DNA from: Chitinophagaceae bacterium
GTDB taxonomy: Bacteria > Bacteroidota > Bacteroidia > Chitinophagales > Chitinophagaceae
NCBI GenBank assembly: GCA_022841365.1
Contig: JALHRP010000017.1
Location: forward strand, 1-60,856
DNA length: 60,856 nt
Direction of reading: 5' to 3'
Position numbers and translations under genes: made by a program. Below the pieces are notes generated by a model, which saw only the letters and a list, made by a program, of their open reading frames with translations, made no database searches and was not told where the DNA came from. Positions 20,705-58,398 of the stretch are shown piece after piece; the stretch's first letter is position 1; the number at the start of each line of letters is the position of its first letter.

Positions 20705-21211
20705 ATGAATCCCGTTAAAACCTGGTACGCTGTTTATACAAAGCCCCGTTGGGAAAAAAAAGTCAGTCTCCAGTTAGATAAAAAAGGGTTGGACTATTAT
20801 TGCCCGTTAAATAAAGTACGCCGTAAATGGAGCGACCGTTATAAAGTAATTGAAGAGCCGTTGTTTACCTCCTATGTATTTGTTCATATTACCGAAGAAG
20901 AAAAAGCAAGAGTGCGGCTTACCGATGGGGTGGTTAACTTTGTTTACTGGAACGGAAAGCCCGGAGTAATTCCGGCAGCAGAGATTGAAATCATTCGTAA
21001 ATTTCTGAAAGAGTACGAAGATGTTCAGGCAGAAAAAGTGGATGTATTGGCCGGTCAAAAAGTACGTATCAAAACAGGGCTCATGATGGATACGGAAGGG
21101 CTTGTAATTAAAGTACTCAATAACCGGGCATATGTATTGCTCGAAAGCCTCGGCTATCAGTTAACTGCTCAATTTGAAAAAAATAATCTTGAACCGATTA
21201 AACAACCTTAA
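20705..21211 (+). CDS. UpxY-like NusG-family transcription antiterminator
   Basis: 168-aa NusG paralogue. KTWYAVYTKPRWEKKV is the typical NGN opening; LFTSYVFVHI and VVNFVYWNGKP match specialised NusG proteins of polysaccharide loci. The KOW domain covers about 115-165 (VLAGQKVRIKTGLMMDTEGLVI). In Bacteroides, UpxY proteins head capsule operons and prevent premature termination in their untranslated leaders. Here the gene directly follows a strong leader terminator, so it probably controls the whole downstream locus in cis. Start ATG 20705; next gene about 50 nt downstream. Confidence 0.93.
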   Translation: MNPVKTWYAVYTKPRWEKKVSLQLDKKGLDYYCPLNKVRRKWSDRYKVIEEPLFTSYVFVHITEEEKARVRLTDGVVNFVYWNGKPGVIPAAEIEIIRKFLKEYEDVQAEKVDVLAGQKVRIKTGLMMDTEGLVIKVLNNRAYVLLESLGYQLTAQFEKNNLEPIKQP

Positions 21212-21262
21212 AACGAAACAACATTCATGTTCAACAATATCATTTCAGATCAAATTAAACCG

Positions 21263-22078
21263 ATGAAGCAAAACCTCTGCCTTCTGGCTGTGTGTGCCAT
21301 TGCTTTTTTAGCATCCTGTGTTTCGCCTGAGAAGCTCAGGAAAGAAAACGTTTATTTTAATGAAGGATTAGACAGTACTAAGTTGAGCCAGTATCAACTG
21401 ATTGAACCTGTCATTCAAAAAGGAGATCTGTTACAAATTACTATTTCTTCCAGAAGCTCATCTTCAAATCAATTATTCAGTCAAAATTATTCAGCAGGTT
21501 CGGGCACAACATCCGGGGGTGCTACTGGTGCGGGTACTTCAGCATCGGGTGCCGGAGGGTACTTGGTAGATATTGTTACCGGTGAAATTAAATTACCACT
21601 GCTGGGGGTTATTACAGCAGATGGTATGACCAAGCTGCAACTGGAAAAAGAAATCATCAAACGCTCAATGGATTATCTGAAAGAAGATCCCATTGTAAAT
21701 ATCCGGTACCTCAATTTCAGAGTAACGTTTTTGGGAAGTGTGGGTGCACCGGGTTCTAAAATTTTTGAATCAGAAAGAGTTTCTTTTTTACAGGCACTGG
21801 GTGATGTAGGTGGTATTGCACCCGGAGGTGATCTCAAAAATATTCTTCTGTTTCGTGAACAAAACGGAACACGAACCATGCATACCATTGATTTAACCAA
21901 TGGCAACTTTTTAAATTCGCCCAATTATTATCTTAAGCAAAACGATGTGGTGTATGTAAGTCCTTCTAAAAGACAACTTGTTGCCATGGATCAAACATCA
22001 GCAAAAACCTTTCAGTACGTCAACTTTGGTTTCTTTGCTGTGAATTTCATCGTTACACTAATCTCACTCATTAAATAA
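21263..22078 (+). CDS. Wza-like polysaccharide export lipoprotein
   Basis: 271-aa outer-membrane export protein from ATG 21263; this start gives a lipoprotein signal with lipobox FLASC (an in-frame ATG at 21227 would put 12 residues in front). The Poly_export domain starts near YQLIEPVIQKGDLLQI, is interrupted by a Gly/Ser/Thr-rich loop, and is followed by an SLBB-type segment (RVTFLGSVGAPGSKIFE) and a C-terminal hydrophobic segment (NFGFFAVNFIVTLISLI). Expected to form the outer channel with the Wzc-like protein. Its TAA overlaps the next ATG by 1 nt. Confidence 0.93.
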   Translation: MKQNLCLLAVCAIAFLASCVSPEKLRKENVYFNEGLDSTKLSQYQLIEPVIQKGDLLQITISSRSSSSNQLFSQNYSAGSGTTSGGATGAGTSASGAGGYLVDIVTGEIKLPLLGVITADGMTKLQLEKEIIKRSMDYLKEDPIVNIRYLNFRVTFLGSVGAPGSKIFESERVSFLQALGDVGGIAPGGDLKNILLFREQNGTRTMHTIDLTNGNFLNSPNYYLKQNDVVYVSPSKRQLVAMDQTSAKTFQYVNFGFFAVNFIVTLISLIK

Positions 22079-24474
22079 TGAATAACAACGGAATTGATCA
22101 GCTCCAGACAAACGAACCGGAAGGGAAACTGCTGACGTTTAAAGAAATTCTCTTTAAATATATTTCTAACCTGCCGCTCTTTTTCTTTTCGCTTGGTATT
22201 GCACTCATTGTATCGTGGGCTTATCTGCGTTGGGCCACACCGGTTTACAGCGTCTACAGCAGTATGATTGTAAAAATGGAAAATGCAGCAAATATTAAAG
22301 GGAATGATAAGTTCAGCAGTATGTTCAATCCGGTAGATAAGATCAATATGGAAGATGAAATTGATCTCATGCGGTCGAAAGAATTTTTACGCCGTGTAGT
22401 CGACAGTCTGCAGCTCAACTCCACCTATATTGAACACGGAAAAGTAAGAAGCAGTGAAGTTTACAAACTGGCACCTTTTATTGTTGAAGCAGTAATGATT
22501 GCTGACAGTAACAGCGGGTATGGGTTTAATATTCAGATATTAAATCAAAACACATTTCTGCTGAATAAAGAAACCAAGCCCCGAAGTTTTTACAGTAATG
22601 TAGAAACGGGTAATTCAATCTTTAGAATAGTGCCCAATACAAATTTAATTGCGGATGCTGCCGGCAGAAAATTTACCTACTCCTGGCAACCATCAATAGC
22701 GGTGGCTGGTGGAATTACCGGCTGGTTAAGTATTGCTCAGAAGAGCCGCACCTCGAGTGTATTAAACCTGAGTTTGAATACGTATAACCCCGAAAAGGGG
22801 ATTGATATTTTAAACCAGATCATGAAAGAGTATGGCCGTTACAATGTGCAGGACAAAAGCCGTATTTCAGAAAATTCGTTCAAGTTTATCAATGACCGTC
22901 TTACTAATTTAGAGAATGACCTGGGAATTGTAGAAGGGAACTTGCAGAGTTTTAAAAAGAAAAATCAGTTTCTTGATCTCGAAGATCAGTCAAAAATGTA
23001 TCTGGAAAATATTACCAGTACAGAAGCCGATTTAAGAAAGCAGGAAGTACAGATTAAAGTACTGGATCTGCTAGATGAATATGTTAATGACAAACAGAAT
23101 CGTTTTAATCTTACACCCACTATCCTTAGTATTGAAGATCCTACACTAACCTACTTGGTATCAGAATACAACCGCCTGATCATTAAACGGGATATCGAAT
23201 TACAAACCACAACCGAAAACAATCCGGTTATTCGTGATATTGAATTTAGTATTGAGAAAACCAGATTGGCCATGATTGAAAACCTGAAGAATATCAGGGA
23301 ATCATACATGCTGGCAAAAAATGAATTGGAAAAACGGAATGCAGTGGTGCGAAACGAAATGTTTGCGTTGCCCGAAAAAGAAAGTCAAATCAGGGAAATC
23401 AAACGTCAGCAGCTTATCAAAAATGAACTGTATACATTCCTCTTACAAAAACGGGAAGAAACAGGTATTCAACTGGCATCAACCGTATCTAACTCAAAAG
23501 TATTTGCTGAAGCAGAAGGGGGTGGTGCTCCAATACTACCAAAACGCCGCAATGCTTACATGCTGGCTATTTTCTTTGGTATTTTAATTCCGGTGATCAT
23601 CATTCTCATACGGGATCTGATGAACGATCGTGTAACAACGAAAGCCGATATCACCAAGAATACAAAAATACCGGTGATTGGTGAGCTGGGCCATAATGAT
23701 AAAATGGAAACACTGGTTGTAGTTAAAAACAGCCGCAGTATACTGGCCGAACAGTTCCGCATCATCCGCTCAAACCTGCAAGGCCTGCTAAAGCGTGAAC
23801 GTACACCGGTGATTTTGGTTACATCTTCGTTTAGTGGAGAAGGTAAATCCTTTGCTGCAACTAATCTGGCAGCATCTATTGCATTAACAGGTAAACGTAC
23901 AGTTGTTCTTGAGTTCGATTTACGTAAACCAAAAATCATCAGCGGTCTTGGTCTGCAACGCACATTCGGTATTACCCATTTTGTAATTGGCAAAGTAAGT
24001 CTGGAAGAAATGCCCGTGAAAGTACCTGATACAGATAACTTATATGTGATTGCCTGCGGACCAACGCCACCCAACCCATCAGAATTATTACTCGATCCAA
24101 AAATTAAAGAACTGTTTGAATTTTGCCGGGATAATTTTGATGCTGTCATTATTGATACGGCACCAATTGGTCTTGTAAGTGATGCAATGACGCTGGCTTC
24201 TTTTGCAGATGCAACTTTGTTTGTGGTACGCCAGCGGTACACATATAAAAAACAATTGCAGATGCTCGAAGATCTGTATCAGCAACAAAAGTTTCCAAGT
24301 GTATCCATACTTGTAAATGATATCAGGGTAGAAGGATATAACAGCTACTACGGTTATGGCGGTTATGGTTATGGCTATGGCTATGGTTATGGCTATGGTT
24401 ATGGTTATTACGATACCGATCCTTCTAAAAACAAATGGTACAATAAAGTTCTTCAGTTCATCGGAATAAAATAA
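22078..24474 (+). CDS. Wzc-like polysaccharide co-polymerase and BY-type tyrosine kinase
   Basis: 798-aa inner-membrane protein controlling polymer length and export. TM1 is about 30-53 within the Wzz domain, coiled-coil about 265-330 and 370-430, TM2 about 493-512. The kinase domain has Walker A SFSGEGKS (584-591), Walker A' VVLEFDLRKPK (609-619) and Walker B VIIDTAP (690-696). The C-terminus (753-778) is an extreme tyrosine cluster: eight consecutive Gly-Tyr dipeptides and 13 Tyr in 26 residues, the expected autophosphorylation site. The CpsB-like phosphatase at 58400 is the probable opposing enzyme. Overlaps the Wza gene by 1 nt. Confidence 0.95.
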   Translation: MNNNGIDQLQTNEPEGKLLTFKEILFKYISNLPLFFFSLGIALIVSWAYLRWATPVYSVYSSMIVKMENAANIKGNDKFSSMFNPVDKINMEDEIDLMRSKEFLRRVVDSLQLNSTYIEHGKVRSSEVYKLAPFIVEAVMIADSNSGYGFNIQILNQNTFLLNKETKPRSFYSNVETGNSIFRIVPNTNLIADAAGRKFTYSWQPSIAVAGGITGWLSIAQKSRTSSVLNLSLNTYNPEKGIDILNQIMKEYGRYNVQDKSRISENSFKFINDRLTNLENDLGIVEGNLQSFKKKNQFLDLEDQSKMYLENITSTEADLRKQEVQIKVLDLLDEYVNDKQNRFNLTPTILSIEDPTLTYLVSEYNRLIIKRDIELQTTTENNPVIRDIEFSIEKTRLAMIENLKNIRESYMLAKNELEKRNAVVRNEMFALPEKESQIREIKRQQLIKNELYTFLLQKREETGIQLASTVSNSKVFAEAEGGGAPILPKRRNAYMLAIFFGILIPVIIILIRDLMNDRVTTKADITKNTKIPVIGELGHNDKMETLVVVKNSRSILAEQFRIIRSNLQGLLKRERTPVILVTSSFSGEGKSFAATNLAASIALTGKRTVVLEFDLRKPKIISGLGLQRTFGITHFVIGKVSLEEMPVKVPDTDNLYVIACGPTPPNPSELLLDPKIKELFEFCRDNFDAVIIDTAPIGLVSDAMTLASFADATLFVVRQRYTYKKQLQMLEDLYQQQKFPSVSILVNDIRVEGYNSYYGYGGYGYGYGYGYGYGYGYYDTDPSKNKWYNKVLQFIGIK
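24361..24408 (+). repeat. hexanucleotide repeat encoding the Gly-Tyr tail
   Basis: Eight GGY-TAT units in a row. Gain or loss of 6-nt units would change the tyrosine count without breaking the frame. Confidence 0.8.
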
Positions 24475-28528: not shown

Positions 28529-28996
28529 ATGCCAGCTTATAAATTAAAAAAAATCAGTCTCCGTAAAGTAAAAACGGGTAAGAACGTGGTTATTGTGCAG
28601 CCATCCAATCTGTACGAATGTACCTTAGGCAGTGATTGTTTTGTAGGTCCGTTTACAGAGATACAAAAAGGAGTCGTGATTGGAAACAATTGCCGCATAC
28701 AAAGTCACTCCTTTATCTGTGAACTCGTAACCATTGGCAACAATTGTTTTATTGGTCATGGCGTGATGTTCATCAACGATACCTTCAGCAATGGAAAACC
28801 AGCAGCAGGTGATCAAAGCAAATGGAAAAAAACGAATATCGGCAACAATGTATCCATTGGCAGCAATGCAACTATTCTTCCGGTAAGCATTTGCGATGAA
28901 GTTGTGATTGGTGCAGGTGCAGTGGTAACAAAAGATATCAAGAAGAAAGGAACCTATGTGGGTAGTCCGGCGAAGCGATTAAAAAATAAACAATGA
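28529..28996 (+). CDS. hexapeptide-repeat N-acetyltransferase, WlbB/WbpD-like
   Basis: 155-aa left-handed beta-helix acyltransferase. Repeated [ILV]-G-x4 units run through the protein (VIGNNCRIQSHSFI, TIGNNCFIGHGVMF, NIGNNVSIGSNATILP, VIGAGAVVTKDI). GHGVMFINDTFSN holds the likely catalytic His and acceptor loop. Size and order fit acetyl-CoA-dependent N-acetylation of a UDP-amino-uronate after the WlbA-like step. Its stop overlaps the ABC permease start by 4 nt (ATGA). Confidence 0.85.
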   Translation: MPAYKLKKISLRKVKTGKNVVIVQPSNLYECTLGSDCFVGPFTEIQKGVVIGNNCRIQSHSFICELVTIGNNCFIGHGVMFINDTFSNGKPAAGDQSKWKKTNIGNNVSIGSNATILPVSICDEVVIGAGAVVTKDIKKKGTYVGSPAKRLKNKQ

Positions 28997-29859
28997 GTCA
29001 ACAAACCGATACAACAGAACACTGGGATCTTGAAATCAAACCACAGTCCTCTGTCTTTGATCTTAATCTCAAAGAAGTGTGGCGGTACAAAGATCTGATG
29101 CTGCTGTTTGTAAAACGGGATTTTACAGCACAGTTTAAACAAACCGTGTTAGGTCCGGTGTGGCACCTGGTGCAACCGGTATTAACCACCATCATGTTTT
29201 TATTTGTATTTCATACGGTTGCAGGTATTGATACAGATGAGATTGAGCCCATCCTTTTCTACATGAGCGGCATCACCATCTGGAATTATTTTGCAAGCTG
29301 CCTCACCAACACCTCCAACACCTTTGTGGCCAATGCATCCATCTTTGGCAAAGTATATTTTCCTCGTTTAATTCTTCCGTTATCGGTGGTACTGTCAAAC
29401 ATGGCAAGGTTGGGTATTCAGTTTTTGTTGTTGCTGGGTTGTATGGTTTTTTATGCACTGTTTAAAAACACACCCATGCATTTTGGCATGAGCTGGTTGT
29501 TGATTCCCGTGCTGGTGTTAATTATGGCAGGCATTGGTTTAGGTTTGGGCATCATCATTTCATCGCTCACCACCAAGTACAGAGATTTTACTGTGCTGGT
29601 AACTTTTGGTGTGCAGTTACTCATGTATGCCACACCTGTTGCCTATCCGCTTTCGTTTTTAAAGAGTAAAAGTTATGCGTCCTTTATTGAATGGAATCCG
29701 TTGAGTCCGTTGGTAGAAGGGTTTCGTTATGCATTGTTTCAAACAGGTAACTTCAATTTCAATACATTGATTTATAGTTTTGTTTTTATGCTCATCGTAT
29801 TGGTATTTGGCACCATGATCTTCAGTAAGGTGGAGAAAACATTTATGGATACGGTGTGA
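28993..29859 (+). CDS. wzm: ABC-2 type polysaccharide exporter permease (Wzm-like)
   Basis: 288-aa inner-membrane permease with about six hydrophobic segments and the typical N-terminal amphipathic part (VWRYKDLMLLFVKRDF, FKQTVLGPVWHLVQPVL). Pairs with the Wzt-like ATPase downstream to move lipid-linked glycan across the inner membrane. Presence together with Wza/Wzc- and Wzy-like proteins is unusual. Overlaps the upstream gene by 4 nt. Confidence 0.92.
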   Translation: MSQQTDTTEHWDLEIKPQSSVFDLNLKEVWRYKDLMLLFVKRDFTAQFKQTVLGPVWHLVQPVLTTIMFLFVFHTVAGIDTDEIEPILFYMSGITIWNYFASCLTNTSNTFVANASIFGKVYFPRLILPLSVVLSNMARLGIQFLLLLGCMVFYALFKNTPMHFGMSWLLIPVLVLIMAGIGLGLGIIISSLTTKYRDFTVLVTFGVQLLMYATPVAYPLSFLKSKSYASFIEWNPLSPLVEGFRYALFQTGNFNFNTLIYSFVFMLIVLVFGTMIFSKVEKTFMDTV

Positions 29860-29932: not shown

Positions 29933-31210
29933 ATGAGTACCATTATAAAAGTAGAAGACATTTCCAAGCAATACCGTCTCGGTCAGGTAAGCACGGGTAC
30001 CATCAGTCATGATGTAAACCGTTGGTGGCACCGGGTGCGTGGCAAAGAAGATCCTTATTTAAAAATTGGCGAAACCAACGACCGTACTTCAACAGGCAAC
30101 AGCGATTATGTATGGGCACTCAAAGACATCAACTTTGAAGTAAAGCAGGGCGAAGTGCTGGGCATTATTGGCCGTAACGGAGCAGGCAAGAGTACCTTGC
30201 TTAAAATTTTAAGTCGCACTACGGCCCCCACCACCGGCAGTATTAAAATCAAAGGCCGGGTAGCCAGCCTGCTGGAAGTGGGTACCGGTTTCCATCCCGA
30301 ATTGAGCGGGCGAGAAAATGTTTTTTTAAACGGTGCAATTTTAGGTATGAGCAAACAGGAAATCAAGCGTAAGTTTGATGAGATCGTTTCGTTTGCCGGT
30401 GTGGAGCGTTACATTGATACACCGGTTAAACGTTACAGCAGCGGTATGTATGTACGACTGGCTTTTGGTGTAGCTGCACATCTTGAACCGGAAATTTTAA
30501 TTGTGGATGAGGTGCTGGCCGTAGGCGATGCAGAGTTTCAGAAAAAATGTTTGGGTAAAATGAAAGATGTGAGTGAGCGTGAGGGACGAACTGTTTTGTT
30601 TGTTAGTCATAATATGGCTGCAGTAAAGCAATTATGTACAAAAGGGCTTGTGATGCAGCATGGCATGAACCGTTTTTCAGGAACACAATATGAAGCGGTT
30701 AATTTTTACCAGAATGCACACCAGACCAACAGTTCGTTTTTGTATGAAGGGCATTTAACAGATGCTCCGGGCAATGAAAATATCCGGATCCTGCGTTTTG
30801 ATGTAAATCCGTTGAAGGGCGACTGTTTGTCGATTTCGTCAGGTGTGGCATTTGAACTTGAATTTTATAATCATAAAGGCGGTATTAACTTGGATGCAAC
30901 ATTCGAACTTAAGTCGTCTGATGAGATAGTGGTTTTTCATCACGGTGCTATTCTTTCGCAGCAGAACGATTCAAAAAGAGGTTTGTATAAAGTAAAAGGA
31001 ACGCTTCCTCCTCATTTTTTAAATGCAGGAATTTTTATTTTTAATTTAATCTTTGGCGAAAACCAACGGATTGCTCTGTTTGCCATCAACGATTTTATTC
31101 AATTTGAAGTAATGAATGAAACCATTGGTTCAAATGCCAATCAGTTACCGGGCGTTGTAAGGCCTGCTATTCAGTACACTGTTTCACACGCATCATATGA
31201 ACAACAATAA
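29933..31210 (+). CDS. wzt: ABC transporter ATPase with Wzt-type C-terminal domain
   Basis: 425-aa energy-coupling subunit for the Wzm-like permease. Walker A GRNGAGKSTLLK near 80-91, signature YSSGMYVRLAFG near 165, Walker B EILIVDEVLAVGD, then VLFVSHNMAAVKQL. After about residue 250 there is a second, strand-rich domain (from YEGHLTDAPGNENI to the end) like the glycan-binding C-terminal domain of Wzt, which reads modified polymer ends in some O-antigen systems. Overlaps the FdtA-like gene by 14 nt. Confidence 0.93.
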   Translation: MSTIIKVEDISKQYRLGQVSTGTISHDVNRWWHRVRGKEDPYLKIGETNDRTSTGNSDYVWALKDINFEVKQGEVLGIIGRNGAGKSTLLKILSRTTAPTTGSIKIKGRVASLLEVGTGFHPELSGRENVFLNGAILGMSKQEIKRKFDEIVSFAGVERYIDTPVKRYSSGMYVRLAFGVAAHLEPEILIVDEVLAVGDAEFQKKCLGKMKDVSEREGRTVLFVSHNMAAVKQLCTKGLVMQHGMNRFSGTQYEAVNFYQNAHQTNSSFLYEGHLTDAPGNENIRILRFDVNPLKGDCLSISSGVAFELEFYNHKGGINLDATFELKSSDEIVVFHHGAILSQQNDSKRGLYKVKGTLPPHFLNAGIFIFNLIFGENQRIALFAINDFIQFEVMNETIGSNANQLPGVVRPAIQYTVSHASYEQQ

Positions 31211-31604
31211 GCCTTATATCATTCAGTTCGATTCAATCGGTGATACAACACTTGGTTACATTTCGGTTGCCGAGCAAAACAAAAACATTCCCTTTGACAT
31301 AAAGCGTGCCTACTGGACCTATTATACACCGCAAAGTGTTAACCGGGGGGGGCATGCCAATATTGATAAAGAACTTGTACTCATTGCTGTGGCCGGCATC
31401 ATTAAAGTGGATATTGAGTTACAGAACGGATACACTGAACAGTTTGTATTAGACAGGCCGGATTGCGGGTTGTTTATGCCAAAGTTATGCTGGCATACCA
31501 TGAACTATTCGCATAATGCCGTACAACTGGTGTTAGCTTCCAATCATTATTCAGCCACCGACTACATCAGAGATTACAGTCAATTTCATTCTTATGGCCA
31601 ATAA
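31197..31604 (+). CDS. FdtA/QdtA-like dTDP-sugar 3,4-ketoisomerase (WxcM-type cupin)
   Basis: 135-aa cupin. Family enzymes convert dTDP-4-keto-6-deoxyglucose to the 3-keto sugar. [30 protein letters not shown] and [13 protein letters not shown] are typical. The catalytic RGxHAH motif reads RGGHAN (R50-N55), so the second His is Asn. A run of eight G's (31345-31352) encodes RGG here and is a slippage hotspot. The two following genes complete an FdtA-C-B-like set; RmlA/RmlB needed for the precursor are not in the window. Confidence 0.85.
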
Positions 31605-32151
31605 TATACATGCACTTGCAGATGTGCAAACGAAAACTATCGGTACAGACACGCTGGTTTGGCAGTTTGCCATTATCTTAAAAGGGGCTGTGGTGGGTAA
31701 CAACTGTAATATCAACTGCCATACGTTTATTGAAAACGATGTCGTAATCGGTAACCATGTAACCGTTAAAAGCGGTGTGTATTTGTGGGATGGTATTACC
31801 GTGGAAGATTTTGTTTTTATAGGACCAAACGTAACCTTTACCAATGATAAAGTGCCCCGTTCGAAGCAGTACCCCTCTTCATTCGACCGGACGGTATTAA
31901 GGCAAGGTGCTTCTATCGGAGCGGGTGCAACCATACTGGGCGGTGTAGAAATAGGGAGGTATGCATTGGTAGGAGCAGGGTCATTAGTTACCAGATCTGT
32001 TCCTGATTTTGCGCTCGTTTACGGTTCGCCTGCAACCATTCGTGGGTGGGTGGATGAAAAAGGAAATCGCCTTAAAGAGCATGGCAAATTTTTAACGGAC
32101 GGAAACGGACGTTTTTTTCAAGTAATCAATCAACAACTTATAGCGCAATAA
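31594..32151 (+). CDS. hexapeptide acetyltransferase, FdtC/WlbB-like
   Basis: 185-aa beta-helix acetyltransferase with repeated [42 protein letters not shown] and [24 protein letters not shown] units. [14 protein letters not shown] is the acceptor-loop segment also found in dTDP-amino-sugar N-acetyltransferases. Position between the ketoisomerase and aminotransferase genes supports N-acetylation of a dTDP-3-amino-3,6-dideoxyhexose (Fuc3N or Qui3N; cannot be distinguished here). Overlaps the FdtA-like gene by 11 nt. Confidence 0.86.
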
Positions 32152-32155
32152 GAAT

Positions 32156-33259
32156 ATGCAAATTCCTTTTCTTTCGTTTGAGTATATGAACCGGGAAATA
32201 AAACCCGAAATCATGACTGCTTTTGAACAGTTTTTCGATAAAAGCTGGTACATATTAGGTACGTCTGTGCAGGATTTCGAAGCAGCTTATGCGCATTTTA
32301 ATCAAACAAAGGCTGCTGTGGGTGTTAGCAACGGACTCGATGCGTTACATATTGCTCTGAAGTGTGCAGGCATAGGTGCAGGCGACGAAGTGCTGGTACC
32401 TTCCAATACCTATATTGCCACTTTTCTTGCTGTGTCTTATGTTGGTGCAACACCGGTTCCGGTGGAGCCCGATATACGTACCTATAACATCAACCCCGAT
32501 TTACTGGAAGCTGCAGTAACGCCTAAAACAAAAGCGATTATTCCCGTTCATTTATATGGGCAGGCCTGTAATATGGATGCGATTATGACCATCGCCGAAA
32601 AGCACGGATTAAAAGTGATTGAGGATAATGCGCAGGCACATGGTGCAACCTGGCAAAACAGGTTAACCGGTAGTTTTGGACATATCAATGCCACCAGTTT
32701 TTATCCCGGAAAAAATCTTGGAGCGTTTGGCGATGCCGGTGCTGTAACAACCGATGATGAGGTGTTGGCAGAAAAAGCTAAAGTGTTGCGCAACTATGGT
32801 TCGCAAAAAAAATATTACAACGAAGAGATTGGATTTAATATGCGGCTGGATGAATGCCAGGCTGCCTTTCTTTCTGTAAAACTAAAGCGATTAAAGGAAT
32901 GGACAGCGTTGCGCCGACAGGCTGCGGTGTGGTACAATGAATTCTTACAGGATTGTTCTTCAGTTATCACACCCTCTACAGAACAGGCCGCCACACATGT
33001 GTATCATTTGTATGTTATCAGAACAACGCAAAGAGATGCTTTGCAAAAGCATCTGGCAAATAACGGAATTGGTACATTAATTCATTATCCTGTACCACCC
33101 CATTTACAGGAAGCCTATAAAGGATTTGGTTTTACGGCCAGGCAATTTCCTGTTGCCGAGGATCTGGCACAAACCTGTTTAAGCCTGCCAATGTGGCCCG
33201 GTATAACGAAAGAGATGGTGTTTGAAGTAACAGGGCAAATCCATTCATTTTTTAGTTAA
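32156..33259 (+). CDS. DegT/DnrJ/EryC1 sugar aminotransferase, FdtB-like
   Basis: 367-aa PLP enzyme. [18 protein letters not shown] opens the cofactor fold, [10 protein letters not shown] holds the PLP-ring Asp, and [17 protein letters not shown] carries the Schiff-base Lys. The N-terminal [13 protein letters not shown] is typical of 3-keto-sugar aminotransferases (FdtB/QdtB). It would aminate the FdtA product at C3; a role with the WlbA-like dehydrogenase is a second possibility. It starts 4 nt after the acetyltransferase gene. Confidence 0.9.
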
Positions 33260-33361
33260 AGAGTGCATAAGCACATAGAATATATTCTTGCTGACAACAG
33301 TAGGTTTAGGGTAACGGAAAGTAATTGAATACTGGTTATAAATTTGATTTCCCAAGGCAAC

Positions 33362-34516
33362 ATGCGAGGTACTTTTATAAAAGAAAAAGACTATTCAACA
33401 GACTATTTCTTTCAGCTTGATTTTTTGCGTGCTATAGCGGTGCTGTTGGTCATTGTTTCTCATTGGTATTCGAAAGACTTTTTTTTAAACAGGTATACGG
33501 AAAACGACACACTCGGGGTTACTATGTTTTTTGTGCTTAGCGGATTCCTGATTACGGGTATTTTATTAAAGAGTAAAAATGCGTTGGGAAAAAGCCAGTC
33601 TTTGGGAGGTATTTTAAAAGTCTTTTATGTAAGGAGGGCGCTTCGTATATTCCCTGTTTACTATTTATTGCTTTTACTTCTTGTAACCTTAGGTATTGAT
33701 GAAACCAGAGATACATTTTGGTGGCATTTTTTTTACGGTTCAAATTTTTTATTCTGGATAAAAGGCCACTTTGTTGGTTTGCTTTCCCCTTTTTGGTCAT
33801 TATCTGTTGAAGAGCAGTTTTATCTGATATGGCCATTCGTGATATTGCTAGCAGGTCAAAAAAAGCTTCCTTATCTCTTTTGTTTAATTGCAGCTTCATC
33901 TGTTCTTTTCAGATTTTTTATAGCAACAGATGTTACACAAATTGGACGAATTCTGATGCCCGGTAGTCTTGATTCATTTTGCGTGGGTGGTTTAATTGCT
34001 TTTGGCAGATTATACCAACCTAAATGGTACGCTTGTATACAAAAAAACAAAGGGAGCTTATTATTTCTAGCAGTTATAATGCTGGTATTTGTAAATACCC
34101 ATTTTTTCAATAGCATTAGTATTAAATTTAGCGTTGCAATATATTATTTAATCCTGTCCATAGCATTTGCAATTTTGACGGATCGTTTAGCATCAGGTAT
34201 AAACAGCAAACCATTTGTATTGGTTTTAAATAATCCGGTATTTCTATTTTTAGGGAAGATCAGTTACGGGCTGTATTTGTTTCACAGCTTCATACCAAAA
34301 GTTTATGGGTTACCAATTCCGAAGTTTTTGACACCCTTCTCTTTTTATATTGCAGAAATAACGAGGTTCTCAATTCTTATTCTAATCGCCTCTATCAGCT
34401 GGTATTTTTTTGAAAAGCCTATACTGAAATTTAAAAAATATTTTTTTTATCAGGATAGTCAAATAATAAGTAGTCGTAAGGCTATTGATAAACTAAATAT
34501 GCCCAATACAATATGA
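33362..34516 (+). CDS. acyltransferase-3 family (OafA-like) O-acetyltransferase
   Basis: 384-aa polytopic membrane acyltransferase from ATG 33362 (a TTG at 33344 is possible). FQLDFLRAIAVLLVIVSHW at the N-terminus carries the family R and H; FFVLSGFLIT and WSLSVEEQFYLIWPF are further signatures. It would O-acylate a sugar of the glycan from the cytosolic side. The gene begins a stretch that looks more AT-rich than its upstream neighbours. Its end overlaps the fucosyltransferase start by 4 nt (ATGA). Confidence 0.9.
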   Translation: MRGTFIKEKDYSTDYFFQLDFLRAIAVLLVIVSHWYSKDFFLNRYTENDTLGVTMFFVLSGFLITGILLKSKNALGKSQSLGGILKVFYVRRALRIFPVYYLLLLLLVTLGIDETRDTFWWHFFYGSNFLFWIKGHFVGLLSPFWSLSVEEQFYLIWPFVILLAGQKKLPYLFCLIAASSVLFRFFIATDVTQIGRILMPGSLDSFCVGGLIAFGRLYQPKWYACIQKNKGSLLFLAVIMLVFVNTHFFNSISIKFSVAIYYLILSIAFAILTDRLASGINSKPFVLVLNNPVFLFLGKISYGLYLFHSFIPKVYGLPIPKFLTPFSFYIAEITRFSILILIASISWYFFEKPILKFKKYFFYQDSQIISSRKAIDKLNMPNTI

Positions 34517-35388
34517 TTATAACGGAATTAAGAGGAGGGCTGGGTAATCAAATGTTTCAATATGCGATCGGCAAAGCCTTAGCAGTAAAAAACAAGACAT
34601 TCCTTTATCTTGACAAACGACCTTTGTATGATATTGATGAGACTTTATTTGTAAAGAGACCATTTGAGCTGAATATTTTTAATATTGAGTTTAATGCTGC
34701 ATCAGACAGTCAATTAAGCATATTTTTTCCTGACGGGCATTTGGGGTGGAGGTTACTTAGGAAGCTTTTCAGAACCAAGGTGCAGAAAGAAAACGGGTTT
34801 AACTATGATGGCCAATCGATCCGCACTAACAGTAGACATATTTACCTGCAGGGTTATTGGCAAAGTGAGAAGTATTTTGAAAGTATTTCTGATGTTATCA
34901 GAAGGGATTTTACATTTATGGCGAAAGTTAATCCGGAGACAAAAAAAATTGCACAGGAAATATCGGAAGGTAATTCTGTAAGTATCCATGTAAGACGTGG
35001 AGATTATGTAACATCAGCCAGTGCCAATCATGGTTTTATAGGGCTAACCTATTATAAGGATGCGTTCAGGATAACTGCCGAAAGAGCTAAAGATGCTAAA
35101 TATTATATTTTTAGCGATGACAGTGCATGGGTTAAACAGCATTTGTTAGGTTATATCGATTCTGCAACAATGGTTGTGCACAATTCGGGGGAAGATAGCT
35201 GGCAGGATATGTATTTAATGAGTTTGTGCAAACATAATATTATTGCTAACAGCAGCTTTAGCTGGTGGGGGGCATGGTTAAATAAAAATGTAGACAAGCT
35301 TGTAATTGCGCCAAACAAGTGGTTTGCAAATGAAGAAATGAATTTGCAAACAGGTGATCTGATACCAAATAGTTGGATCAGGATTTAA
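34513..35388 (+). CDS. alpha-1,2-fucosyltransferase-like, GT11 family
   Basis: 291-aa inverting fucosyltransferase. ITELRGGLGNQMFQYAIGKA at the N-terminus and HVRRGDYV (159-166) are the GT11 motifs; SSFSWWGAWL near the C-terminus is also conserved. The donor GDP-L-fucose can be made by the gmd and fcl genes of the same locus. GT11 enzymes usually attach fucose alpha-1,2 to galactose, making an H-antigen-type disaccharide. The GT6 gene three positions downstream fits this pathway. Confidence 0.92.
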   Translation: MIITELRGGLGNQMFQYAIGKALAVKNKTFLYLDKRPLYDIDETLFVKRPFELNIFNIEFNAASDSQLSIFFPDGHLGWRLLRKLFRTKVQKENGFNYDGQSIRTNSRHIYLQGYWQSEKYFESISDVIRRDFTFMAKVNPETKKIAQEISEGNSVSIHVRRGDYVTSASANHGFIGLTYYKDAFRITAERAKDAKYYIFSDDSAWVKQHLLGYIDSATMVVHNSGEDSWQDMYLMSLCKHNIIANSSFSWWGAWLNKNVDKLVIAPNKWFANEEMNLQTGDLIPNSWIRI

Positions 35389-35475
35389 GATGCCAGAATC
35401 AGGAATTTTATTCAGGTAATCCCCAAGTCTCAGACTTTAATCACTGAGTTTAAACTGTGTAAAGTAATAAAAGTA

Positions 35476-36447
35476 ATGCCCAAAATAACGGTTATCAATC
35501 TTTGTTATAATAGTGGTAATAGGCTAATAAAAACCCTGCAATCATTCGCTAATCAAACATTCAAAGATTTTGAAGTAATAATTATAGATGATGCTTCCTC
35601 TGATAACTCGGTGAGTGTTCTTGAAGGTTGGATACAGTTAAACAAAATAACAAATGCCAGGCTTGTAAAGAATAAGGTTAATGTAGGAATACCTTCCGGA
35701 CTGAACCGGGCTCTGAAAGAAGCAACGGGTGATTACATTTCTGTAATTGGTGATGATCTGTGGGATGTTGATTTTTTAGAGCAGTTGTATATACGACTCA
35801 ATAACACGCCAGCAAATGTTGGAATGATTTATTGTAAAGCGAGGCGTTTTAATGAGGTTTCTCAAACCTTTGACAAAGAGCCAGAGCCACCTGTAGTAAT
35901 GCGGTCAAATGGTTGCCCCTTTGCGGAGGACTTATTTGAATCAAAAGGCAATAAATTGTATTTCATGAGATCAGATGTTGCATTTGAATGTCTTTTCTGG
36001 TCAAATTATATCGCTTCTTTTACATTTCTGGCTAAAAAAAGTGCTCTGATAGCTTCCGGCGGATATGATGAAACGTATTCAATTGAAGATTATCCTATGT
36101 GGTTTAGGATCACAAAAAAATATGATCTTCTGTTTCTTGATGAAGTACATGCGACGTATGTGAGACACGCTACGAATTTTTCTACAAATAACCGAGTGTC
36201 CTTGCAGTTTAGTGTAATTAAGCTAAAGATTGGGTTGATCAAAAAAATTAAAGATTCAAGAACACGGTCACATGTTTATTCAGAGGTCTTCGATTTATTG
36301 AGTGGACTTTTAACAAATTCCGAGCATTGTCAAAAATTACTAGTACTGTATTTAGTGAGTCAGACTTTATTTTTACCAGGGTTTAAATTTAAACGAAGCT
36401 TATTGCAAAAGATTCCATTATTCTTATTAAACAGCCCAAGAAAGTAA
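35476..36447 (+). CDS. glycosyltransferase, GT2 family
   Basis: 323-aa GT-A enzyme. ITVINLCYNSGNRLIKTLQS starts the nucleotide-binding fold, DDASSDNSV follows, and VIGDDLWDVDF supplies the DxD-like metal site; IEDYPMWFRI is the usual acceptor-loop ED pair. The C-terminal third is unlike common GT2s and ends in basic residues, perhaps membrane-associated. AT-rich relative to the flanks. Sugar specificity not deducible. Confidence 0.88.
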   Translation: MPKITVINLCYNSGNRLIKTLQSFANQTFKDFEVIIIDDASSDNSVSVLEGWIQLNKITNARLVKNKVNVGIPSGLNRALKEATGDYISVIGDDLWDVDFLEQLYIRLNNTPANVGMIYCKARRFNEVSQTFDKEPEPPVVMRSNGCPFAEDLFESKGNKLYFMRSDVAFECLFWSNYIASFTFLAKKSALIASGGYDETYSIEDYPMWFRITKKYDLLFLDEVHATYVRHATNFSTNNRVSLQFSVIKLKIGLIKKIKDSRTRSHVYSEVFDLLSGLLTNSEHCQKLLVLYLVSQTLFLPGFKFKRSLLQKIPLFLLNSPRK

Positions 36448-36463
36448 GTTAAAGTAAAATTCT

Positions 36464-37363
36464 ATGATTAATATTTATACAGTAAGCGATAAACGTCCAG
36501 ACTTTATTTCGCTACAATATAATGGATTTAAAAAATTCTTGAAAGACAAGGATTACAAGTTCATTGTTTGTAATAACGGTTCAACCTCGGAATTACGAAA
36601 TGAAATTGCGGATATCTGTAATAAGCTCGGACTTACAAGTGTTTATGTGGAAGGAAATTATGAAAATGGTGCGATTGCTACACAGGTGCCATTGATTTAT
36701 TGTTTAAAAAATTATATCCGACACGACCCGAAAGAAGATATGACGGTTATTATAGACTCTGATATCTTTCTATTTAACAATTTTAGTTTTACAGAATTAT
36801 TAGAAGGGGCAGACATTGCAGGTATTTATCAACAACGGGACCGACAGGCAAAGAAAATATTCTTGCGTAATCATTATTATTTGTGGAATGCATTTCTTGT
36901 TTTTAAGAATAGTTCGATCGATTTTGAAAAATTTGACATATCAATGATTCAAAATATAACAGATGTTGGGGGGAATCTTCATTATTATCTTGAAAGATTT
37001 AAACCTAAAGTAAAATGGGTTGTTCACACACCAGATATCGAAGACGAATCAGAAATATTCATCGATGGCTTAAGGGAAATATATCATCCTCAATTTGGCA
37101 TGCAGATAATTGCAAGCTCTTTTATTCACTACTACCGAGGGTCGAATTGGGATGCTTTGAATAACAATTATCACGAACTGAAAACAGGTTTTTTGGTGAA
37201 GTTCTTAGAAACTGCCAGAAAGCAATATCCTCTAACTCCGAAATTGCATAACTACCAAGATGATTGTGCGCATACCAAGAGGCATTATAATGGCACGAGA
37301 CACAATACTAAATCGAGATTCAGGATTTCAAATAAGCTTTACCGATTAAAATGGTTTGGATAA
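36464..37363 (+). CDS. putative GT-A type glycosyltransferase, unassigned family
   Basis: 299-aa protein. MINIYTVSDKRPDFISLQY at the start and TVIIDSDIFLF (a DSD motif with hydrophobic flanks) suggest a GT-A nucleotide-sugar site. I cannot assign a CAZy family. It lies in tight order with the GT2 gene before it and abuts the GT6 gene after it (36464-37363, then 37364), so a transferase role in the same repeat unit is likely. AT-rich, His/Tyr-rich C-terminus. Confidence 0.65.
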   Translation: MINIYTVSDKRPDFISLQYNGFKKFLKDKDYKFIVCNNGSTSELRNEIADICNKLGLTSVYVEGNYENGAIATQVPLIYCLKNYIRHDPKEDMTVIIDSDIFLFNNFSFTELLEGADIAGIYQQRDRQAKKIFLRNHYYLWNAFLVFKNSSIDFEKFDISMIQNITDVGGNLHYYLERFKPKVKWVVHTPDIEDESEIFIDGLREIYHPQFGMQIIASSFIHYYRGSNWDALNNNYHELKTGFLVKFLETARKQYPLTPKLHNYQDDCAHTKRHYNGTRHNTKSRFRISNKLYRLKWFG

Positions 37364-38143
37364 ATGAAAAACAAAGTTGCCATACTTTATATCTGCACAG
37401 GGAATTATGTTATCTTTTGGGAGAACTTTTACAAGAGTTTTTCCAGGCATTTCCTGCCAGGGTATCAAAAAAAATATTTTGTTTTTACAGAAAGCAACGA
37501 TGCTTCGTTACAGACAGCAAATGATGTTCGTGTGATTTACCAGAAAAAGCTTGGCTGGCCATATGATACGTTGTACAGATTCCGTATGTTTTACAGTATT
37601 GATGAGCAATTGAAAGATTTTGATTACATCTTCTTCTTTAACGCAAACATGATCTGTCTTCAAGATATTGATGACCGAATTTTACCAAATGAGCAGGAGC
37701 GGTTAGTAGTTGTAAAACATCCCGGATTTTTCGATAAGGATCGCAGTTTATTTACTTATGAAACAAATCCTCAATCATTGGCCTATATTCCGGATGACAA
37801 AGGGGAGTATTATTTTATGGGGGGATTTAACGGGGGGATTGGTAAGTATTACAGAGAATTAATCAAAACCCTGAAAGAAAATATTGATTATGATTTGCAA
37901 ACGAATAAACTAATTGCTATTTGGCATGATGAGTCGCATTTAAACAGGTATATGCTGGATAGATCTCCTAAAATCCTTTCGCCTGCGTATGGTTATCCCG
38001 AAGGAGTCGAACTGCCTTTCGAACAAAAAATTATTATTCTTGACAAGAATCGTTTTGGCGGTCATAACGCAATGCGTGGTATTGAAAAGAACCGACCGTT
38101 TATTGGAAAGATTAAAAAAATCCTACACTTTTTCAAAATTTGA
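37364..38143 (+). CDS. GT6 family glycosyltransferase (ABO-transferase homologue)
   Basis: 259-aa homologue of mammalian alpha-1,3-Gal/GalNAc transferases. Motifs: AILYICTGNY, WPYDTLYRFRMF, the metal-site position FFNANMIC (N93-A94-N95), VVKHPGFF, YYFMGGFNGG and WHDESHLNRYML. The NxN in place of DxD is the known signature of bacterial GT6 enzymes, which work without the divalent metal that the mammalian ones need. Known bacterial members act on Fuc-alpha-1,2-Gal acceptors. With GT11 and gmd/fcl in this locus, a blood-group A- or B-like structure is the natural prediction; which of Gal or GalNAc is not clear. Confidence 0.9.
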   Translation: MKNKVAILYICTGNYVIFWENFYKSFSRHFLPGYQKKYFVFTESNDASLQTANDVRVIYQKKLGWPYDTLYRFRMFYSIDEQLKDFDYIFFFNANMICLQDIDDRILPNEQERLVVVKHPGFFDKDRSLFTYETNPQSLAYIPDDKGEYYFMGGFNGGIGKYYRELIKTLKENIDYDLQTNKLIAIWHDESHLNRYMLDRSPKILSPAYGYPEGVELPFEQKIIILDKNRFGGHNAMRGIEKNRPFIGKIKKILHFFKI

Positions 38144-38148
38144 TAAAG

Positions 38149-39003
38149 ATGGTTAAAGTATCAGTTATTATTCCTTGTTATAATCATGGTCAATATTTGC
38201 ATCAGTGTCTTGATTCCGTAAAAAAGCAGACTTATTCTAATCTTGAAATAATCATTGTGAATGACGGCTCGACTGATCCCGAGACAAATCGAATTATCGG
38301 TGCGATTGATGAGACCGGTATTCAAGTAATTAATAAAAAAAATGAAGGACTTGCTGCAGCAAGAAATACAGGAATAGATGCTGCAACCGGTGAGATCATC
38401 CTTCCCATTGATTCGGATGATTATTTGGGTGATCAATATGTTGAAAAAGCGGTAAATCTTTTAACTAATGACAACGAAATAGGGCTTGTTTCCTGCCGTG
38501 GGAAGTATTTCGGCACGAGAGATAATGTGATTGAGAATGCGTATATATCGGCTCATTCGATGCTGCTGTATAATTCGCTTTTCCACTGTGCCATATTTCG
38601 TAAAAGCGATTTTCTGCATATCGGGAAATATAACGTTAATATGACGAAAGGCTACGAGGATTGGGAAATGTATATACGCATGATCAATTACAAAAAAAAG
38701 GTAGTTCAGTTGCCCGATATCTTTTTCTTTTACAGGCAAAGAAACGGATCAATGCTTGATGAGCTGGAAAAAAGTGAATCAGCCAGAATTGAGATGGAAA
38801 ACGTAATAGTAAAAAACAATATTGATATTTATATCAAGGAATGGGGGTCGATCATAAAAGTTCTGAGGGAGTATGAGTGGCTAAAAAAGCAAGAATCTTC
38901 TTTAGATGAAGCCAGGAAAGAAATTAAAAATACGATGTCGTACAGACTGGGGAGTTTCATTTTGTACCCGTTTAAAATGATTAAAGCTGTTATAAAAAAA
39001 TGA
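38149..39003 (+). CDS. glycosyltransferase, GT2 family
   Basis: 284-aa GT-A enzyme from ATG 38149 (MVKVSVIIPCYNHGQY); a TTG at 38140 overlapping the previous stop is an alternative. NDGSTDPETN and LPIDSDDYLG carry the donor-binding Asp and DxD motifs; KGYEDWEMYIRM is the acceptor loop. The C-terminal coiled segment (EARKEIKNTMSYRLG) resembles chain-end segments of rhamnan-type transferases. Ends in an ATGA overlap with the next gene. Confidence 0.9.
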   Translation: MVKVSVIIPCYNHGQYLHQCLDSVKKQTYSNLEIIIVNDGSTDPETNRIIGAIDETGIQVINKKNEGLAAARNTGIDAATGEIILPIDSDDYLGDQYVEKAVNLLTNDNEIGLVSCRGKYFGTRDNVIENAYISAHSMLLYNSLFHCAIFRKSDFLHIGKYNVNMTKGYEDWEMYIRMINYKKKVVQLPDIFFFYRQRNGSMLDELEKSESARIEMENVIVKNNIDIYIKEWGSIIKVLREYEWLKKQESSLDEARKEIKNTMSYRLGSFILYPFKMIKAVIKK

Positions 39004-44813: not shown

Positions 44814-44814
44814 C

Positions 44815-44997
44815 GTCATTTCGAATGCAGCCTGAGAAATTTTACATATTACACGCTTTTTATGGCGGAATGAGAAATCTTAACGTTTCGGAGCAGGTAG
44901 TAAGAATAAGATTTCTGAGTCGTGGATCTGTCACGCTTATTGCATGACCCCACTCCTTCCCCGCCTGAACGGACAGGCAGGGAAATGACGGCCATCA
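44815..44997. repeat. composite intergenic repeat element
   Basis: Starts GTCATTTCGAATGCAG and contains the inverted pair AGAAATCTTA (44873-44882) / TAAGATTTCT (44907-44916) and, near 44958-44985, a hairpin-forming CCGCCTGAACGGACAGGCAGG. This GTCATTTCGA...GAGAAATCT type is, from general experience, a common interspersed repeat of Bacteroidota. It occupies the whole 208-nt gap between two GT4 genes; no coding capacity. Confidence 0.7.
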
Positions 44998-45021
44998 TTC
45001 AACATTCAGTTTATAAAATTT

Positions 45022-46799: not shown

Positions 46800-46805
46800 T
46801 CATTT

Positions 46806-47537: not shown

Positions 47538-47548
47538 ATCACTGCTGT

Positions 47549-47626
47549 TTGAAGGACCAACTGTTTTTTGACCGACTGGATGTTTATCGTTTTGTTGCAG
47601 TAGCATTTGTATTGATTTCACATTGA
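47549..47626 (+). pseudogene. N-terminal remnant of an acyltransferase-3 gene
   Basis: An open stretch of 25 codons starting at TTG reads LKDQLFFDRLDVYRFVAVAF and VLISH then stop. This matches the first helix of acyltransferase-3 proteins (compare FQLDFLRAIAVLLVIVSHW at 33404). The Trp expected after SH is replaced by TGA and nothing homologous follows, so it is a decayed start of a former OafA-like gene. It lies in the gap after the FkbM gene. Confidence 0.6.
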
Positions 47627-47669
47627 TTCAAGTTTATAATAAGGAATGTCATTATTGGCGAATTAGAGA

Positions 47670-56356: not shown

Positions 56357-57469
56357 ATGAAGAAAGCATTGATTACCGGTGTTACCGGTCAGGATGGAGC
56401 TTATCTCTCCGACCTGTTATTAAAGAAAGGATATGAAGTACATGGTATTAAACGGAGAACATCTTTGTTTAACACCGATCGTATTGATCATTTGTATGAA
56501 GATCCGCATATCAACAACCGTCACTTTGTACTTCACTACGGCGATTTAACAGACAGCACCAATCTCATCCGCATCATCCAGGAAGTACAGCCCGATGAAA
56601 TTTATAACCTCGGTGCCATGAGTCATGTAAAAGTGAGTTTTGACACACCTGAGTATACAGCCAACACCGACGCTGTTGGTACACTTCGCATTCTGGAAGC
56701 TGTACGTTTACTGGGTTTAACCGATAAAACAAAAATTTATCAGGCATCTACTTCAGAGTTATATGGTTTGGTACAGGAAGTGCCGCAATCAGAAACCACA
56801 CCGTTTTATCCACGCTCACCATACGGTGTTGCAAAAATGTATGCTTACTGGATCACTGTAAACTATCGTGAAGCATACAACATGTTTGCATGCAATGGAA
56901 TTTTGTTTAATCATGAATCACCTTTACGTGGTGAAACTTTTGTGACCAGAAAAATTACCAGAGCGGTTGCAAAAATTGCCATGGGCATGCAGGATAAATT
57001 ATGGCTCGGTAACCTTAACTCAAAAAGAGACTGGGGGCATGCGAAAGATTATGTAGAAGCAATGTGGCTGATGTTGCAACAGGAGAAACCCGAAGATTTT
57101 GTAATTGCAACGGGTGTAACCACTGAGGTGAGAGAATTTGTTCGCATGGCGTTTGCACAGGTGGGAATTGAAATTGAATTTAAAGGAGCAGATGAAGAAG
57201 AAAAAGGATTTGTAAAATCTGCTTCGCATCCTGATTATCAGGTTGCAGTTGGAACAGAAGTAGTAGCGGTTGATCCAAGGTATTACCGCCCTACAGAAGT
57301 GGACTTGCTGATTGGTAATCCGGCAAAAGCCAATCAGAAATTAGGATGGAAACCAAAGTATGATTTGCAGGGCCTGGTAAAAGAAATGGTGGAGGCAGAT
57401 ATTGATGTCTTTAAGAAAGAAAAATTATTAATGGACAGCGGATTTAAAATAAAAAATCAATTTGAGTAA
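56357..57469 (+). CDS. gmd: GDP-mannose 4,6-dehydratase
   Basis: 370-aa short-chain dehydrogenase that converts GDP-D-mannose to GDP-4-keto-6-deoxymannose. [19 protein letters not shown] is the NADP-binding glycine motif, STSELYG and [10 protein letters not shown] supply the catalytic Ser/Thr-Glu and Tyr-Lys, and [18 protein letters not shown] is diagnostic of Gmd. It overlaps fcl by 1 nt, so the two are translationally coupled for GDP-L-fucose synthesis. Confidence 0.97.
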
Positions 57470-58398
57470 TGGAGAAGAATGCAAGGATATATGTAGCAGG
57501 TCATCGTGGAATGGTGGGCTCGGCCATTGTAAGAAAACTGCAGCAGGAAGGATATGAAAACCTGCTGCTGCGTACTTCAGCTGAATTGGATTTGCGCAAT
57601 CAGGAATCAACCGAACAGTTTTTTAAAGAACATAAACCTGATTACGTTTTTTTAGCTGCAGCAAAAGTGGGAGGTATTGTTGCCAACAATACTTACCGTG
57701 CAGATTTTTTATATGAAAATCTGATGATTCAAAACAATGTGATTCATGCTGCGTTCAAACACAGCGTTACAAAATTGTTGTTTCTCGGGTCATCCTGCAT
57801 CTATCCAAAATTTGCAGAGCAACCTATACAGGAAAGTGCATTGCTTACAGGTACGCTTGAACCAACCAATGAACCGTATGCTATTGCAAAAATTGCAGGA
57901 TTAAAATTGTGCGAAGCTTACAGAGATCAGTATGGCGCCAATTTTATTTCGGCCATGCCTACCAATCTGTATGGTCCAAACGATAATTACGATCTCAATA
58001 ACTCACATGTGCTTCCTGCATTGTTACGCAAAATGATTGTGGCAAAGCGTACCGGTCAACCTGTTGTTGAAATATGGGGTACGGGTACTCCCCGCCGTGA
58101 ATTTTTGCATGTAGATGATTTAGCTGATGCCTGTTATTTTTTAATGCATCAATACAATGGAAGAGAGTGGCTGAACATTGGTGTGGGTGAAGATATTTCC
58201 ATTAAAGAACTGGCCGAACTTATAAAGCACATTGTTGGCTATGAAGGAGAGTTACAGTTTAATACCACTAAACCCGATGGTACTCCACGCAAGCTGCTGG
58301 ATGTATCAAAACTGCAATCGCTTGGATGGAAAGCAGGCATTGGATTACAGGAAGGCATTGAAAAAGTATACCAGGAAATAAAATCGCTTCCTTTTTAA
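57469..58398 (+). CDS. fcl: GDP-L-fucose synthase
   Basis: 309-aa epimerase-reductase finishing GDP-L-fucose. [18 protein letters not shown] binds [20 protein letters not shown] and [17 protein letters not shown] carry the catalytic Ser, Tyr and Lys, and [10 protein letters not shown] and [13 protein letters not shown] are conserved. Provides the donor for the GT11 enzyme and any other fucosyltransferase in the locus. Confidence 0.97.

Follow-up and report, generated by a model that had tools for sequence, protein, structure and literature searches.

A GT11–GT6 gene pair in a polysaccharide locus of a Chitinophagaceae bacterium: a candidate route to an A/B-blood-group-like glycan and the distribution of the pair in bacteria and phages

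Results

Genes of the candidate pathway

The stretch of DNA analysed here (the window) is the entire contig JALHRP010000017.1 (C17, 60,856 nucleotides) of the Chitinophagaceae assembly GCA_022841365.1, which comprises 4.56 Mb in 326 contigs with an estimated contamination of 4.09%. From about 20.7 kb onward, the window carries a polysaccharide locus that holds a GT11 fucosyltransferase-family gene, a GT6 homologue of the ABO transferases, and the gmd and fcl genes. The genes in question, in window positions, are as follows:

34513..35388, + strand: GT11, alpha-1,2-fucosyltransferase-family protein, 291 amino acids (PF01531, E 2.7e-29, 102.8 bits, cut-off 23.9)
35476..36447, + strand: GT2-family glycosyltransferase, immediately 3' of GT11 (PF00535, E 2.8e-23)
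36464..37363, + strand: protein with an invariant DxD and no Pfam, NCBIfam or PHROG family
37364..38143, + strand: GT6, NXN-type ABO-transferase homologue, 259 amino acids (PF03414, E 1.5e-32, 113.1 bits, cut-off 25)
56357..57469, + strand: gmd, GDP-mannose 4,6-dehydratase (TIGR01472, 595 bits, equivalog cut-off 415)
57469..58398, + strand: fcl, GDP-L-fucose synthase (NF047922, 506.8 bits, equivalog cut-off 500)

The original prediction, made from the sequence alone, had described a GT11 gene and an NXN-type GT6 gene close together, with GDP-fucose supplied by gmd and fcl. Both transferase assignments were borne out by the profile scores; GT11 also matched PHROG 2644 (glycosyltransferase, 6.6e-58), and GT6 passed the NCBIfam model Gltr_6 with 308.7 bits (cut-off 250). 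Each was the sole match of its family in the whole assembly. The two genes indeed share a locus, but their proximity had to be corrected, as the GT2 gene and the family-less gene lie between them. The gmd and fcl genes passed their equivalog cut-offs and belong to the same polysaccharide locus, but they are located 18-20 kb downstream of GT6, beyond the originally stated 34513..38143. This gmd was the only one over its cut-off in the assembly, and galE was over its cut-off on another contig (C30). The presence of gmd and fcl indicated that this locus produces GDP-L-fucose.

The GT2 gene at 35476..36447 had no NCBIfam model above its cut-off, and its product is a possible maker of the acceptor linkage. 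For 36464..37363, the profile searches returned no Pfam family above cut-off and no NCBIfam or PHROG match. Relatives of this protein (24-29% identical, E up to 1e-15) were observed in 12 of the 80 viral GT6 loci described below, and among 80 named genome loci only in L046, a separate assembly that carries a clone of this stretch. The protein appears to be glycosyltransferase-like. Apart from L046, the closest GT11 relatives in the compared loci were 38-44% identical to the window GT11.

Motif and donor residues of the GT6 protein

When solved structures were ranked against the window GT6, Bacteroides ovatus BoGT6a (PDB 4ayj) came first with 1.8e-63, followed by human ABO transferases (2.1e-30) and alpha-3-galactosyltransferase (alpha-3GT, 8.7e-18). 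The identity to BoGT6a was 48% over 234 aligned positions. We then compared 16 BoGT6a residues to which PMC3961637 assigns substrate contact, a catalytic role or a place in the NXN motif, and 15 were identical, including N95, N97, W189, H190, D191, E192, K231 and R243; the exception was Asn69, replaced by Asp. In place of the metal-binding DXD, the window GT6 has the NXN motif N93-A94-N95, and the WHDE stretch with the catalytic Glu is present as W187, H188, D189 and E190, aligned with BoGT6a W189-E192. The NXN motif has been linked to metal independence in GT6 (PMC3961637), and by this motif the protein would be of the metal-independent type.

The donor was assessed with the A-like/B-like residue rule of PMC4202792, comparing human positions 235, 266 and 268. 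The window GT6 has Gly, Met and Gly at these positions, and the A-type enzyme BoGT6a likewise has Gly at 235 and 268. These residues weakly suggested that N-acetylgalactosamine (GalNAc), supplied as UDP-GalNAc, may be a somewhat likelier donor sugar than galactose (Gal).

Linkage of GT11 and GT6 within the family

A sample of 394 Chitinophagaceae genomes was searched by profile for GT6, GT11 and control genes. GT6 was found in 13 genomes, GT11 in 107 and both in 11, and in all 11 the GT11 lay at most 1985 bp from GT6 (11/13 of the GT6-bearing genomes). The two GT6 genomes without GT11 were G028 and G166. The GT6 match of G028 (C46:269363-269689, L015) is a fragment interrupted by an in-frame stop, apparently a decaying copy. 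That of G166 (L010:1351-2196) has DAD, a motif of the DXD type, and an identity of 31%, and no GT11 was found in the G166 genome; two bacterial DXD-type GT6 proteins were known as of 2014 (PMC3961637). Every family genome with an intact NXN-type GT6 (11/11) had a GT11 neighbour. G000 and G292 represent one clone over 20.8 kb, giving an independent family count of 10/12 (10 intact NXN-type). The automatic count gave stops in the GT11 matches of two genomes, G034 and G347, and in the first codon of the GT6 match in G356; the open frames are 278, 289 and 264 amino acids, respectively.

The control genes were rarely found beside GT11. The polysaccharide gene fdtA lay within 2.5 kb of GT11 in 2/103 genomes among the matches listed, within 5 kb in 6/103 and within 10 kb in 10/103, while the corresponding values for GT25 were 0/94, 1/94 and 2/94. 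For these distances, the contigs common to the control gene and GT11 were chosen by eye, and the FdtA cases include the window and G292. At 2.5 kb, Fisher tests that took no account of relatedness gave 7e-12 against FdtA (among the matches listed) and 3e-13 against GT25; mere co-presence of GT6 and GT11 gave 2e-5 on the same terms. The GT11-GT6 pairing is not due to chance.

Linkage and fusion in named relatives

To survey the pair more widely, we used the best 80 of 263 relatives of GT6 from a collection of genomes (the named relatives) and the best 80 IMG/VR contigs with GT6, and in these genome and viral loci GT11 was detected with an iterated profile built from 27 GT11 proteins instead of Pfam. 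GT11 lay within 2.5 kb of GT6 in 56/80 named relatives; where both flanks extended at least 5 kb, the count was 43/56. GT11 was present somewhere in the genome in 74/80. In 17 loci, no GT11 was seen in the examined stretch, and 11 of these genomes have one elsewhere, with none found in the other six. Those six are three Paenibacillus, a deltaproteobacterial metagenome-assembled genome (MAG), a Psychromonas MAG with a broken GT6 frame and a Helicobacter MAG.

In the three Gram-positive Paenibacillus loci (L053, L056 and L058), the GT6 is of the NXN type, while the search of their genomes found no GT11. In L053, a relative of fcl was observed close to GT6.

In 47 compared pairs, GT11 lay downstream on the same strand in 28, upstream on the same strand in 14 and on the opposite strand in 5. 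Named isolates are among the carriers, with GT11 1.0 kb upstream of GT6 in Paraflavisolibacter caeni LB-8 (L048), 126 bp downstream on the other strand in Olivibacter domesticus DSM 18733 (L052) and 1.7 kb downstream in Chitinophaga alhagiae T22 (L074). The GT11 and GT6 distance matrices were correlated with an overall r of 0.64, a value reached in 0 of 2000 permutations. A single ancient GT11-GT6 cassette was considered and rejected: r was 0.14 for distant pairs, GT11 varies in both its side and its orientation relative to GT6, and repeated re-association is equally likely.

In 2/80 named loci, GT6 and GT11 occupy a single open frame with GT6 first, both parts being over their Pfam cut-offs; no such fusion was found in the 80 viral loci. 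The two fusions are as follows:

L110:9995-11626, Planctomycetota MAG KLAP7: 544 amino acids, GT6 1.6e-35 at 9-213, GT11 1e-40 at 244-529
L084:9413-11587, Hoeflea sp. MAG M_23: 725-amino-acid frame, GT6 4.5e-32 at 198-407, GT11 1.3e-31 at 544-719

By their domain content, the fusion proteins could be natural two-step A/B-antigen enzymes. The linkage and the fusions together constitute indirect evidence for a fucosylated GT6 acceptor. In addition, GT2 and GT11 share a frame in 4/80 loci (L082:8169-9995, L094:8232-9992, L093:5595-7682 and L124:9235-11112), which suggests that a GT2 enzyme probably makes the acceptor for fucose.

Viruses, plasmids and habitats

The viral sample gave a similar picture, with GT11 within 2.5 kb of GT6 in 56/80 contigs and within 100 bp in 44/80. 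A phage collection contained 71 GT6-matching records, 64 of them named Synechococcus or Prochlorococcus phages. In cyanophage P-SSM2 (L206), GT11 (PSSM2_265) and GT6 (PSSM2_268) are 1.5 kb apart, and in phage B23 (L207) GT11 immediately precedes GT6. A 2014 paper had already reported GT6 from two cyanophages as well as from marine metagenomes (PMC3961637). Only 2 of 72,556 plasmid records had a GT6 match (identities 44.7 and 45.1%). A sample of 326 genomes of the phylum yielded GT6 in two, namely the window genome and one other Chitinophagaceae.

On a reading of record titles plus recall rather than metadata, 42/80 named relatives were not visibly animal-associated and 38/80 formed the remainder. 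The former include Paraflavisolibacter, Mucilaginibacter, Olivibacter, Chitinophaga, Paenibacillus, Chlorobaculum, Nomurabacteria, Hoeflea and Pelagibacter as well as sludge and lake MAGs. GT11 lay within 2.5 kb in 34/42 of these versus 22/38 of the others. In a rapidly built tree of 85 GT6 sequences, from which L068 (broken frame) was left out, the host label changed at least 14 times, with four changes forced by starred branches, and was more clustered than in shuffles. The window GT6 grouped with environmental Bacteroidota, the nearest by path being Paraflavisolibacter caeni, followed by MAGs and a Mucilaginibacter. We rejected naming a donor lineage for the window GT6 because this grouping has no starred supporting branch.

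Neighbouring genes and history of the stretch

According to profile searches, the locus further contains many GT2 and GT4-like genes, one acyltransferase and a CpsB-like gene. Other features of the window are as follows:

20705..24474, + strand: UpxY-type antiterminator, Wza-like and Wzc-like genes at the locus start (NF033644 136.2 bits, cut-off 100; TIGR01007 134.1 bits, cut-off 108; Wza-like by weak matches only)
28993..29859, + strand: Wzm-like ABC permease, polysaccharide export (PF01061, E 7.3e-17)
29933..31210, + strand: Wzt-like ABC ATPase, polysaccharide export (PF00005, E 2.3e-22)
31197..33259, + strand: fdtA-like, hexapeptide acyltransferase and DegT aminotransferase genes (PF05523 5.3e-37, PF00132 1.1e-21, PF01041 2.2e-118)
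38140..39003, + strand: GT2-family glycosyltransferase, immediately 3' of GT6 (PF00535, E 6.1e-34)

We take the genes at 31197..33259 to be probably a pathway to a dTDP-3-amino-3,6-dideoxyhexose donor, with a Fuc3NAc-like sugar. They suggest a second, amino-deoxy sugar in the same polysaccharide as fucose.

The G+C content was 0.350 at 33344-39003, compared with 0.413 before and 0.392 just after. We rejected this low value as the mark of one acquired block, as 42607-48900 was equally low (0.361). The separate assembly (L046, on a G292 contig) has 20,777 bases in common with the window, with one mismatch. Among 14 genomes of the genus, the whole tested 12 kb was matched only in the window's genome and G292; the other 12 matched mainly the ABC-exporter part, to which G346 adds an 82-base piece of GT11. 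The stretch has the appearance of a variable region, subject to exchange, within a surface-polysaccharide locus.

Discussion

Proposed pathway and alternatives

With a probability of roughly 0.76, judged from gene content, conserved residues, the GT11-GT6 linkage and the fusions in relatives, we propose that the locus directs the synthesis of a surface polysaccharide with an A/B-blood-group-like unit at the end of its repeat or of a side branch. In the proposed pathway, Gmd and Fcl would produce GDP-L-fucose, and a nearby enzyme, perhaps the GT2 encoded after GT11, would place the acceptor galactose. GT11 would attach L-fucose in alpha-1,2 linkage to this galactose, giving Fuc-alpha-1,2-Gal. 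GT6 would then add alpha-1,3-GalNAc, somewhat likelier than Gal, to the same galactose in a metal-free reaction, and the glycan may be exported by the Wzm/Wzt-like transporter or by the Wza/Wzc-like machinery of the locus. We infer the acceptor, the linkage, the donor and the place of the glycan.

Several observations weigh against this proposal. No GT11 lies inside 2.5 kb of GT6 in 24/80 named relatives, and in 6/80 GT6-bearing genomes none was found at all. In the window, GT11 and GT6 are separated by two genes, and in 36/80 relatives GT11 lies within 100 bp. The matrix correlation drops to 0.14 for GT6 distances over 0.45, so the agreement exists mostly among close relatives. The two fusions sit side by side in the GT6 tree, at an unstarred branch with support 84, and both come from MAGs; they may represent a single event. 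The donor residues are mixed, with Gly 235 and Gly 268 being A-like and Met 266 B-like. Finally, the GT11 member HhFT2 is an alpha-1,3-fucosyltransferase, and family membership thus leaves the linkage unfixed (PMC4202792).

The acceptor is the first point on which another explanation can be offered: GT6 might use unfucosylated beta-Gal or GalNAc to form an alpha-Gal-like or Forssman-like product, with the fucose elsewhere in the repeat. The original prediction held that known GT6 enzymes act on Fuc-alpha-1,2-Gal, which is right for the ABO type and for BoGT6a. However, alpha-3GT and the isogloboside 3 and Forssman synthases need no fucose. All three belong to the same family (PMC3961637), and the six genomes in which no GT11 was found, together with G166 and its DXD-type GT6, would fit such an acceptor. 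We nevertheless consider it unlikely for the window, since all 11 intact NXN-type copies in the family have a GT11 neighbour, GT6-GT11 fusions exist in relatives, and the window GT6 is nearer to BoGT6a, which uses 2'-fucosyllactose, than to alpha-3GT in the structure ranking. The GT11 step could also differ, through another linkage such as alpha-1,3-fucose or another donor, so that the glycan would be fucosylated and not ABO-like. HhFT2, which makes Lewis x, sets a precedent for the former (PMC4202792), and the genes for another deoxy-amino sugar in the same locus allow the latter. FutC, WbwK, WbsJ and WbiQ are all alpha-1,2 enzymes, however (PMC4202792), gmd and fcl show that GDP-L-fucose is made by the locus, and linkage and fusion with an ABO-type GT6 are what an H-to-A/B order leads one to expect; a different GT11 step therefore seems to us slightly less probable still.

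It is highly improbable that the GT11 and GT6 genes represent a decayed or disused remnant or a metagenome-binning artefact. The fragmented assembly with its estimated contamination and the drop in G+C would be compatible with this, but the frames are open, the motifs are intact, the polysaccharide locus continues on both sides, and the separate assembly L046 carries the same sequence. Acquisition of the stretch would likewise account for its low G+C, although 42607-48900 has a similarly low value.

Comparison with known systems

The A/B-like unit proposed for the window has known counterparts: BoGT6a, and WbnI with WbwK of Escherichia coli O86, make A and B units (PMC3961637; PMC4202792). BoGT6a (PDB 4ayj, 4cj8) resembles the window GT6 in family, NXN motif, overall identity, 15 of the 16 compared residues, and the C-terminal Lys and Arg; it differs at Asn69 and at Ala155, where the window GT6 has Asp and Met, respectively. 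The window derives from a Chitinophagaceae bacterium and BoGT6a from a gut Bacteroides. A GT11 in the same locus is a feature of the window, while BoGT6a was compared as a protein only. In E. coli O86, the GT11-type WbwK and the GT6 WbnI likewise carry out an H step and then a B step for one strain's O-antigen (PMC4202792). That system, likened here by description, is an enterobacterial O-antigen, in contrast to the window locus, which combines genes for an ABC exporter and Wzc-like genes with many GT4 genes and a second deoxy sugar. BgtA of Helicobacter mustelae, also likened by description, is an A-type GT6 acting on Fuc-alpha-1,2-Gal (PMC4202792); its source is an animal-associated species. 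Cyanophage P-SSM2 shares with the window a GT11 and a GT6 in one cluster, and its GT6 is 35.7% identical to the window GT6, but its pair is phage-borne, unlike that of the window.

The window genome is one of many with the pair, and the enzyme types are already known. Our literature search, in which coverage of subscription papers was incomplete, turned up no paper describing GT11 and GT6 as linked or fused in bacteria, and we claim no priority.

Significance

Bacterial blood-group-like glycans are mostly viewed as mimicry of the host or as antigens that trigger anti-A/anti-B antibodies. The original prediction viewed the window as a case of host-independent synthesis. Its direction agrees with the 42/80 relatives not visibly tied to animals, whereas such a case is neither new nor special to this genome, GT6 in cyanophages being known (PMC3961637). 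The more interesting point is how widely GT11 and GT6 are linked away from animals and in phages, together with the fusions. We tentatively suggest, at somewhat less than even odds, that the pair, sometimes fused, is mainly a mobile module with which free-living bacteria and phages diversify surface polysaccharides, and that the gut and pathogen examples behind the host-mimicry idea are a minority offshoot.

The survey also adds candidate metal-independent A/B-type transferases, including possible natural two-step fusion enzymes, and cultured relatives carry the pair. Blood-group-like substances in environmental matrices have been reported to bind noroviruses (PMC6466409), and it is therefore of practical interest which free-living bacteria carry them. 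That the pair recurs in cyanophages and in bacteria with no obvious animal host suggests that there may be another selective reason for it, for example, the evasion of phages or grazers.

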